From assembly GCA_011045915.1 (NCBI GenBank), contig DSBT01000175.1:1-64000 (forward strand): 64,000 bases of DNA. Direction: 5' to 3'. The DNA comes from Mesotoga infera (GTDB lineage: Bacteria > Thermotogota > Thermotogae > Petrotogales > Kosmotogaceae). Under the pieces are notes generated by a model. It was not told the origin of the DNA and ran no database searches. It worked only from the letters and a program-made list of their open reading frames with translations. Below, piece by piece: positions 60,320 to 64,000 of this stretch; position 1 is the first letter of the stretch; each line of letters starts with the position of its first letter. The position numbers and the translations under genes are program-made.

Positions 60320-61408
60320 CTACTCTCCACGTTCTTTGTCATATTCAACTTCTTTTACTGAGTAACTATGGACTATTCCTAACTGAAGAGCAAATATCAT
60401 CGACGATGATCCGCCGTAACTAACGAAAGGTAACGGGATTCCAGTAACTGGCAGGAGTCCCAGATTCATTCCGACATTCTCAACCACATGAAAGGCAAAA
60501 ACAGCGAATATTCCGCTAAGAACTATTCTACCAAACTCGCTCCCTGTTTTTCTTGTGATCGACCAAATCCTCCATAGCAGAAGCAAATACATTGTAAGCA
60601 ACGAAACGGCTCCTATGAAGCCCCACTCTTCTCCCAGAACCGAGAAGATGAAGTCGGTGTGATCTGCTGGAACGTATCCGAGCCTGTTCATAGTTCCTTG
60701 AAGCATTCCGGTGCCCTCCAGACCGCCGGATCCAATTGCCCTGATTGCCTGTATCGTATTGTAAGCTGCGCCGGAGGCATATTCCTCGGGGTGAAGGAAA
60801 CTCAGGAGTCTGTCTCGCTGGTAAGGTTTTAGACCGAACATGAAGACTACCGGCGCCAATAAAGCGATTAGCGCAGTAATTGCAATCATTAGCTTATCGT
60901 ATTTCTTGCTGACTAGAGTCATGAAATACCAGATGATCATCACGATAATTGTCGTTCCCAGGTCGGGTTCCAGATAAATCAGACCAACGAAGGCGCCAGT
61001 AATCAGTACGCCCAGGAAGAAAAGGCCATACTTGCGCTTGACTTCGCTGGAATATATATATCCAAGGAATATTATCAGGGAGAATTTCGCGAGCTCAGAT
61101 GGCTGAAAGCTGGCAACGCCAAGATCTATCCATCTTCGAGAACCTTCAACCGGACCCAAGTAAAGAACCGCGCCCAATGTCACAACAGATAGAAACAGTA
61201 ACAGAAAGGAAATGCTCTTCCAAAAACCTCTCTTGACGACGTAAGCAGTAAAAACGAAAACCGCGCACGAAAGCAGGACCCAAACTAGTTGCCTGCCGAA
61301 CAGGTACTCTTCTCTATCACCAAAAGTGGCACTATACAGCACGATCAGGCCAAATATCATAAGAGAAACCATGATTCCCGGAAGCAAGAACTCAACTCTG
61401 CGCTTCAT
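60320..61408 (-). CDS. rodA: Rod-shape SEDS peptidoglycan polymerase RodA
   Basis: SEDS-family glycosyltransferase that polymerises lipid II during elongation. About ten TM helices; RRWIDLGVASFQPSELAK, LEPDLGTTI, YVPADHTDFIFSVLGEEWG and LPFVSYGGSS are signatures. About 362 residues. ATG 61408 is chosen because GAGAGGA lies 6 bases upstream; the longer ORF would cross a TATAAT promoter. PDLGTT and loop lengths fit RodA better than FtsW. Confidence 0.93.
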   Translation of the reverse strand: MKRRVEFLLPGIMVSLMIFGLIVLYSATFGDREEYLFGRQLVWVLLSCAVFVFTAYVVKRGFWKSISFLLLFLSVVTLGAVLYLGPVEGSRRWIDLGVASFQPSELAKFSLIIFLGYIYSSEVKRKYGLFFLGVLITGAFVGLIYLEPDLGTTIIVMIIWYFMTLVSKKYDKLMIAITALIALLAPVVFMFGLKPYQRDRLLSFLHPEEYASGAAYNTIQAIRAIGSGGLEGTGMLQGTMNRLGYVPADHTDFIFSVLGEEWGFIGAVSLLTMYLLLLWRIWSITRKTGSEFGRIVLSGIFAVFAFHVVENVGMNLGLLPVTGIPLPFVSYGGSSSMIFALQLGIVHSYSVKEVEYDKERGE

Positions 61409-61432
61409 ATACACTCCTCTCAGTTCAATATG

Positions 61433-61438
61433 ATTATA
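61433..61438 (-). promoter_or_regulatory. -10 box of rodA
   Basis: TATAAT on the minus strand, 24 bases upstream of the rodA ATG. No consensus -35 box. Confidence 0.4.
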
Positions 61439-61512
61439 TAACTTCTTAATCACCTTACGCATTACAGCCTGCATCAGGCTATCCCAGAAGAAATGTCGTC
61501 TTTGACCAGGCT

Positions 61513-61542
61513 TTGTCTTGAAGGCCGACAAAAATGTATAAT
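61513..61542 (+). promoter_or_regulatory. Promoter of panB
   Basis: TTGTCT (61513-61518), 18-base spacer, TATAAT (61537-61542) with TG before it (extended -10). About 95 bases upstream of the panB ATG. Confidence 0.55.
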
Positions 61543-62482: not shown

Positions 62483-63211
62483 ATGATGGCAGGAGAAAAT
62501 GTTATTTCTTTCTCTGAGATAGACTCCACGAATCGATTCGCTGTTGACAACCTGGACAGACTTCCTTCCGGTACAGTAGTCTGGTCTTTGTCGCAGACGA
62601 AGGGTTATGGGAGGCACAAACGAGTTTGGCACTCCAGCAGAGGCGGGCTGTGGATCTCAATAGTCTTCAAACCAACACTGATTAGAGAACCAAATGAATA
62701 TACTAAACTTGCTTCCGTCGCAATTGTTGAAACTCTTCTGCAGCTTGACTTCAAATCTGTGAGGATTAAGTGGCCAAACGATGTTCTGATAAACAGCAGA
62801 AAAGTTGCCGGGATTCTTACTGAGGCAGTTTTTACAGGCAGGTCGCTTAGTGCCATAGTGGTAGGTGTAGGTATCAACGTAAACAATGAATTGCCTGACG
62901 AAATCAAGCAAACCGCCCTCAGTTTGAGTGCCGTGAAGGGTAATCATATTTCGCTTGAATCACTTCTAGATAGGCTTCTTAAGAGAATGGAATTCCTCAG
63001 AAAGACCTACCTGATAAGAGGAAAAAGCAGATACCTCACCAGACGCTGGAAGAAATACCTCGCTTTTCGAGAGAATGATGAAATAACTGTATCCCTGCGC
63101 GAAGATGACAGAGTCACTGGTATAATTAAGAGGATAACTCCTTCATCATTGCTGATCGAACAAGAGAACGGAACGGTCCTCGAAATAAAGTCGGGGGAGG
63201 TTATCCTCTAA
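62483..63211 (+). CDS. birA: Biotin--protein ligase
   Basis: Attaches biotin to carboxylase carrier proteins. Catalytic domain only (242 residues): SEIDSTNRFA, the biotinyl-AMP loop KGYGRHKRVWHSSRGGLWIS, IKWPNDVLINSRKVAGILTEA, VVGVGINVN and a C-terminal SH3-like domain. No helix-turn-helix, so it is not a biotin-operon repressor. The 3' end overlaps the convergent rqcP gene by 11 bases. Confidence 0.92.
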   Translation: MMAGENVISFSEIDSTNRFAVDNLDRLPSGTVVWSLSQTKGYGRHKRVWHSSRGGLWISIVFKPTLIREPNEYTKLASVAIVETLLQLDFKSVRIKWPNDVLINSRKVAGILTEAVFTGRSLSAIVVGVGINVNNELPDEIKQTALSLSAVKGNHISLESLLDRLLKRMEFLRKTYLIRGKSRYLTRRWKKYLAFRENDEITVSLREDDRVTGIIKRITPSSLLIEQENGTVLEIKSGEVIL

Positions 63212-63425
63212 TCTCCTGAACAACCTCCGACCGGAAATCCTCCGTAACCTTCACAATGAGTGTTCTGTTTGAAAACCTTATAGAGACGATGTCGTTGGGT
63301 TTCACTTCCGAACCTGGCTTTGCCGGAGTATTGTTTCTTGATACATAACCCTTTTCAATCGCTCTTTTTGCCACTACTCTTCGTTTGATTATCCCATTTA
63401 CTTTCAAGTATTTGTCTATACGCAA
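63201..63425 (-). CDS. rqcP: S4-domain RNA-binding protein RqcP
   Basis: 74 residues. RIDKYLKVNGIIKRRVVAKRAIEKGYVS is an S4 RNA-binding domain and, with AKPGSEVKPNDIVSIRF, lines up closely with Bacillus RqcP (YabO), which binds 50S-tRNA during alanine tailing and works with RqcH. Related Hsp15-type proteins are larger. TTG 63425 is chosen: TAGGAGA lies 6 bases upstream. TATACT on the minus strand near 63441-63446 may be its -10 box, overlapping the opposite promoter. Confidence 0.85.
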   Translation of the reverse strand: MRIDKYLKVNGIIKRRVVAKRAIEKGYVSRNNTPAKPGSEVKPNDIVSIRFSNRTLIVKVTEDFRSEVVQEIRG

Positions 63426-63449
63426 GATAAATCTCCTATGAGTATACAC

Positions 63450-63478
63450 TTGACTAACTAACTCAAAATAGGTATAAT
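63450..63478 (+). promoter_or_regulatory. Strong sigma-A promoter of a short transcript
   Basis: TTGACT (63450-63455), exactly 17 bases, TATAAT (63473-63478): 11 of 12 consensus bases at ideal spacing, the best promoter in this part of the window. It points away from rqcP into a short hairpin unit. Confidence 0.75.
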
Positions 63479-63484
63479 TATGTC

Positions 63485-63536
63485 ATCGAGATGTTCTTGC
63501 CCCCGCCACTCCGCTAGGTGCAGGGGCACTTTTTTT
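63485..63536 (+). ncRNA. Candidate small RNA or attenuated leader (about 50 nt)
   Basis: Expected to start about 63485 and stop at a hairpin (63498-63506 with 63520-63528, six GC-rich base pairs plus two more after a mismatch) followed by seven T (63530-63536). No plus-strand gene lies downstream; the T run reaches the stop codon of the convergent unknown gene. An ATG at 63491 opens an 8-residue ORF (MFLPPPLR, stop at 63515-63517) whose three Pro codons lie in the hairpin's left arm; no ribosome site is visible before it. Identity unknown. Confidence 0.45.
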
Positions 63537-64000
63537 ACATAATCACTATAAGGGTTCTTACTCCACCCGTCTCTTCAAGATACTGGCTGTTAAGGAGAAC
63601 TCCGCTCTCAATTTCGAGACCCATGAGACCTGTCAAGATGTATCCGGAATCGACAAACAACCTGGCGAATCCCTCGACTCCTGTGAAATCCAGAAGCATT
63701 TTGTACGTAGCTAATTCGGAGATTATTACTCCATTATTAAGCGCTTCATCAGTTTCAGTCTGACTCTTTGATGAAACGAAAAGCCATCCATTTTGGATCC
63801 ATATATACTGACCTTCCACTAATAGGCCGTCGTTGGAAACAGACACTCTTAGGTTCGGTTCCGCCTCCTCTATCATGGACTTGACTTTATCTAATGTGCC
63901 ATTGTAGGAGGCTCTCACAACGTAGGTGTAGCCTACTGAGTCTGTACTTTCAGTTGTCGTTCCACCCGCACCCATTAGACCTGCAAAGATATCATCTACC
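63535..64000 (-). CDS. 3' part of an unknown protein gene, cut by the window end
   Basis: About 155 C-terminal residues, open through the window edge (the ATG at 63975 is not the real start, since the frame stays open above it through VDDIFAGL). The visible region begins with a Gly/Thr stretch (GAGGTTTES), then a domain with YVVRASYNG, LVEGQYIWIQNGWLFVSS and LDFTGVEGFARLFVDSGYI. The pattern is of an extracytoplasmic or solute-type domain but no family is recognised. The stop codon touches the T run of the opposite short transcript. Confidence 0.5.
   Translation of the reverse strand, partial: VDDIFAGLMGAGGTTTESTDSVGYTYVVRASYNGTLDKVKSMIEEAEPNLRVSVSNDGLLVEGQYIWIQNGWLFVSSKSQTETDEALNNGVIISELATYKMLLDFTGVEGFARLFVDSGYILTGLMGLEIESGVLLNSQYLEETGGVRTLIVIM

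Follow-up and report, generated by a model that had tools for sequence, protein, structure and literature searches.

The window analysed here, a stretch of 64,000 nt of Mesotoga infera DNA, ends in a spacer where a promoter is followed almost at once by a terminator, and it raises the question of what so short a transcript could do. The initial annotation proposed an attenuator in which ribosomes stalling on a polyproline mini-ORF would keep the terminator from forming, tied this to ribosome rescue through the neighbouring rqcP gene, and kept a plain small RNA as its fallback.

A short transcription unit and its surroundings

The features of the locus are as follows.
63201..63425, minus strand: rqcP-like S4-domain gene (Pfam S4, 4e-10), a divergent but not constant neighbour
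63442..63449, plus strand: conserved element GTATACAC, abutting the -35 box upstream
63450..63478, plus strand: promoter TTGACT-17-TATAAT, conserved in 13 genomes with a spacer of 17-18 nt
63485..63536, plus strand: small RNA of ~50 nt, 5' end predicted 6-8 nt past the -10 box
63487..63496, plus strand: 5' seed CGAGATGTTC, complement of the spacer between Shine-Dalgarno (SD) and start in the ftsL-like mRNA
63499..63527, plus strand: hairpin GCCCC-CGCCA/AGGTG-GGGGC
63509..63515, plus strand: invariant hairpin loop CTCCGCT (RNA CUCCGCU), complement of AGCGGAG at the rsmH end
63530..63536, plus strand: T7 tract of the intrinsic terminator, T5-T7 in 13 of 13 homologues
63535..64000, minus strand, extending past the window: convergent gene for a 444-aa protein, next to the sRNA in each of the three genera

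The near-consensus promoter and the GC-rich hairpin with seven T that had been annotated both hold. TTGACT (63450-63455) and TATAAT (63473-63478), 17 nt apart, match the consensus at 11 of 12 positions, and the pair ranks first among the 12 promoter-like sites in 60-64 kb, where shuffled sequences average 5.5. A terminator-like hairpin lies at 63516-63531, with the T tract running on to 63536. The RNA 63485-63538 has a folding energy of -17.4 kcal/mol (z = -2.28), equalled by 5 of 200 shuffles. Across homologues, 88% of the cells of the hairpin stem are paired, a share that falls to 32-50% in controls with a slid partner, and the G-U pairs of the inner stem are consistent with a plus-strand transcript. 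Both sides of the stem have changed at two positions, counts that are not significant on their own against shuffles.

The upstream motif GTATACRC and the sRNA promoter are invariant or nearly so across homologues; the conservation of GTATACAC (63442-63449) equals that of the promoter. In each of the seven genomes tested GTATACRCTTGACTA has exactly one copy. This element also stands upstream of the sRNA promoter in genus g3, which has no divergent rqcP there, and we therefore assign it to the sRNA promoter. GTATACAC may be an operator that would reveal the inducer of the sRNA. An operator shared with sites elsewhere was rejected, since the element and -35 box together are exactly repeated nowhere else in the genomes tested.

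No plus-strand gene lies downstream, as had been annotated; the sole downstream feature is the convergent minus-strand ORF, with its stop codon at 63535. Its 444-aa product, which has no family match in Pfam or NCBIfam, begins with a signal-like segment and is probably exported. The same gene was observed at L033:1551-2885. For rqcP, the start is most likely the TTG at 63425 behind AGGAG rather than the GTG at 63449. A RodA/FtsW-looking ORF occupies 60320-61531 of the window (minus strand), 2 kb from the sRNA.

Conservation of the unit but not of the mini-ORF

Searches with two covariance models (R1 and R2) and a sequence pattern found the unit, as a single copy each time, in 13 of 17 Kosmotogaceae genomes; nine of these belong to the window's genus, out of its ten, and the rest to two further genera. 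Within the window's genus, 9/9 genomes with an identified rqcP have the whole unit upstream of it, as does Kosmotoga olearia. A covariance model and the pattern located three more copies in genus g3, where the unit sits behind a cysS-like gene (named by eye from its translated C-terminus) with its own terminator, away from rqcP. It follows that the system does not include rqcP, and the proposed link to ribosome rescue is rejected. That 13 genomes share the combination of promoter, 5' end, hairpin and T tract is more than chance. Among 103 genomes of the phylum there was no convincing copy outside Kosmotogaceae, and pattern matches outside the family in the genome collection were taken as chance. 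Four of the 17 Kosmotogaceae genomes (G008, G010, G013 and G014) lack the sRNA; G008 is 78% complete and is also without a detectable rqcP, and the other three are at least 90% complete.

The covariance search and the alignment of the spacer across relatives show that promoter and hairpin are conserved and that the mini-ORF is not. In the window's species the transcript does contain the 8-codon ORF MFLPPPLR*, as it does, with the same stop, in three close relatives. Ribosomes stalled on its proline codons would open the terminator and let antisense transcription continue. Against this, the downstream gene lies on the opposite strand in the three genera examined, the PPP run is retained in 5 of 13 homologues, five genomes (G001, G002, G005, G007 and G012) have no in-frame stop within the transcript, G005 having none at all in the 120 nt examined, the AUG has become ACG in G011 and G016, and no Shine-Dalgarno precedes the ORF. 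With no conserved leader ORF carrying a stall motif among the 13 homologues, comparison refutes the polyproline attenuator, and we give it practically no credence.

What is conserved instead are two parts of the RNA itself: loop and 5' end are invariant among the homologues while the stem varies, and the 5' seed CGAGAYGUUC is the same in all 13 genomes save a T to C change in G011 and G016. The unit has its own promoter and an intrinsic terminator and holds no conserved ORF, as expected of an sRNA. No Rfam family reached its gathering score, and the sole match, to atoC, was at chance level (E = 8.8). Hfq (PF17209) is encoded in 17/17 Kosmotogaceae genomes, so that two traits of Hfq-dependent sRNAs, a host Hfq and a U-rich 3' tail, are present together; the T tract is a possible Hfq-binding tail, with Hfq binding itself an inference. 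The fallback of a plain small RNA was thus the right one, and the RNA moreover has an identifiable mRNA target.

A predicted target in the division operon

Genome searches for the complement of the sRNA 5' end returned mostly matches within coding sequence, in numbers near or modestly above a reversed-pattern control. One site was found in the same place in four genomes, the SD-to-start spacer of an ORF of 95-96 aa lying immediately downstream of rsmH, where the seed complement GAAC[A/G]TCTCG is exact. The ORF is followed by a penicillin-binding transpeptidase gene (Pfam PF00905), and with rsmH (mraW) before it and this gene after it, it occupies the ftsL position of the dcw cluster. Its product agrees with FtsL in this rsmH-X-PBP position, in its size (95-96 aa, where about 90-100 aa is expected) and in having one membrane segment. 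The Kosmotogaceae protein has no curated FtsL match in Pfam or NCBIfam, and we therefore call the gene ftsL-like only; an orthologue in the sister family matches FtsL_2 at E = 0.008, short of the cut-off. The putative naming of the target rests on position, membrane segment and size.

Targets were sought by pattern searches. In G000 and G007 the only exact 13-nt complement is the one at the ftsL-like gene, and K. olearia (G012) has it just there and on the sRNA's own antisense strand; two further exact matches occur in G001 and one in G011. Of RBS-like sites with at least seven seed matches, the ftsL-like one alone recurs in all seven genomes tested. A second target at another RBS was considered and rejected, no other such site having recurred in these genomes.

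We extracted the rsmH-ftsL junction from 30 genomes. The arrangement TGA-AGGGAGGAAC[A/G]TCTC-GTG stands at the ftsL-like gene in 13/13 genomes with the sRNA and also in G008; it reads AGGGAGGAACATCTC-GTG throughout the window's genus (10/10) and in K. olearia, and AGGGAGGAACGTCTC-GTG in three g3 genomes. In three family members without the sRNA, the spacer is altered to AGGGGGTAACACATC-ATG or AGGGGGTAACATTT-ATG, or is unrelated, and in the sister family it is likewise altered or unrelated. The two partners also change together: in G011 and G016 the mRNA has GAACGUCUCG and the sRNA CGAGACGUUC, an A to G change in the mRNA with a U to C change in the sRNA. This co-variation is limited to one pair position in one genus. 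Seed and target thus co-vary or vanish together, with one compensated position and an altered site in three genomes that lack the sRNA, a small number of independent events, and the predicted pairing of the sRNA with the ftsL-like mRNA is strongly supported by comparison. At the same position, G015 differs from G011 and G016 (L042, L058, L081) in having U in place of C in the seed facing the same mRNA G, a G.U rather than a G-C pair.

Could the SD-start spacer be conserved for some other reason, the true targets of the sRNA lying elsewhere? That the compensated position is a single one would fit this, as would the conservation of codon stretches around the RBS even where the sRNA is missing. 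AGCGGAGCGGAT, at the rsmH end, and AGCGAAGCGGA, in codons 5-8 of the ftsL-like gene, are nearly fixed in Kosmotogaceae, sRNA-less genomes included, and are perhaps an older regulatory feature. The spacer itself, on the other hand, is conserved only alongside the sRNA, and the seven genomes tested share no other recurring RBS-like site, so we regard this reading as quite improbable. The two stretches flank the RBS and resemble each other (L161, L168, L175, L177).

When each sRNA was co-folded with its own target, the energy gain ranged from -7.5 to -28 kcal/mol, with z = -1.7 to -6.0; z lay between -2.0 and -6.0 in seven of eight genomes, and G006 was weak at -1.7. Foreign sRNA-mRNA pairs gave z = -0.5 to -2.9, some of them near -2 to -2.9, so energy alone separates own from foreign pairs only partly. 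For most genomes, co-folding predicts a complex held at two points: the seed sits on the RBS, and the loop binds AGCGGAG at the rsmH end, 15 nt upstream of the seed site. Two genomes that lack the sRNA also have AGCGGAG, and about 4% of shuffles produce it, so that the loop contact does not discriminate. The second contact, plausible though not proven, is the less certain because the rsmH codons are the same in those two genomes.

We consider it highly probable, from these comparisons, that the locus is a free-standing gene for a trans-acting sRNA of ~50 nt, which would most likely block translation of the ftsL-like gene. The unpaired 5' end CGAGAYGUUC would pair with the RBS and start codon of this gene in the rsmH-ftsL-pbp (dcw) operon, probably aided by the loop CUCCGCU on AGCGGAG. 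Since the duplex covers the SD and the GUG start, repression of translation initiation is to be expected: ribosome binding should be barred, synthesis of the septum protein lowered and division slowed. Comparison across genera shows a conserved gene, its complementarity to the target, and the joint occurrence and co-variation of the two; we infer expression of the RNA, the repression, help from Hfq and the nature of its trigger. Published RNA-seq of K. olearia selected against RNA under 200 nt (PMC5674127).

An sRNA that activated or stabilised the ftsL-like mRNA, or an mRNA that served as a sponge for the sRNA, would leave identical conservation data, and DicF activates one of its targets (PMC9438474). 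The duplex spans SD, spacer and start codon, which is the usual geometry of repression, and we hold activation or sponging to be unlikely. The transcript might also be a mere cis-antisense or barrier terminator shielding the 444-aa gene from divergent transcription out of the rqcP promoter region, as it does converge on the 3' end of that gene in all three genera. A barrier would account neither for the invariance of 5' end and loop nor for their match to the ftsL RBS or the loss of the site where the sRNA is missing; we judge it very improbable.

On an rsmH tree the genomes without the sRNA do not form one group: G013 stands apart, and G010 and G014 fall near g3 with weak support. Their scatter makes a gain in the Kosmotogaceae ancestor, followed by losses along with the decaying mRNA site, the simplest history, though not an established one. 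Beyond translational repression as such, we somewhat favour the fuller picture of a single-copy sRNA that would clamp the ftsL mRNA at two points, by its 5' seed and a kissing loop, and that would have been kept since the Kosmotogaceae ancestor and lost along with its site in certain lineages.

Relation to known RNA regulators of division

FtsL is a limiting and regulated protein of the divisome in other bacteria, and the predicted target therefore makes biological sense. The pair offers a concrete sRNA and target in a deep-branching phylum with few described non-coding RNAs; a search of mostly open-access literature turned up no previous description of the RNA, nor of any sRNA directed at ftsL or any pair of sRNA and target in Thermotogota.

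With Hfq-type sRNAs that end in an intrinsic terminator, the Kosmotogaceae RNA shares a sigma-70-type promoter, a 5' seed, a U-tailed terminator hairpin, an RBS target and a host Hfq. It differs from them as a new sequence family confined to Kosmotogaceae, and its dependence on Hfq is putative. StfZ of E. coli is likewise an antisense RNA to a division gene; it lies opposite its target ftsZ (PMC9628754), whereas the Kosmotogaceae sRNA is encoded elsewhere in the genome than its predicted target. DinR of Klebsiella pneumoniae also covers the start of translation in a division mRNA, again that of ftsZ, and is processed from the dinI 3' end under LexA (PMC10907235); its target and sequence differ from those described here.

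DicF, from the Qin prophage of E. coli, is similar in length (~53 nt), ends in an intrinsic terminator and pairs with the RBS of a division mRNA, that of ftsZ (PMC5069750); Hfq is encoded in Kosmotogaceae too. Processing of a prophage mRNA yields DicF, which uses its 3' region on ftsZ (PMC5069750), whereas the Kosmotogaceae sRNA has its own promoter and would use its 5' end on an ftsL-like mRNA. By analogy, the latter most likely works like DicF but is unrelated to it. This suggests that control of septation by RNA at the RBS, exerted by unrelated RNAs on ftsZ in enterobacteria, arose separately at another division gene.
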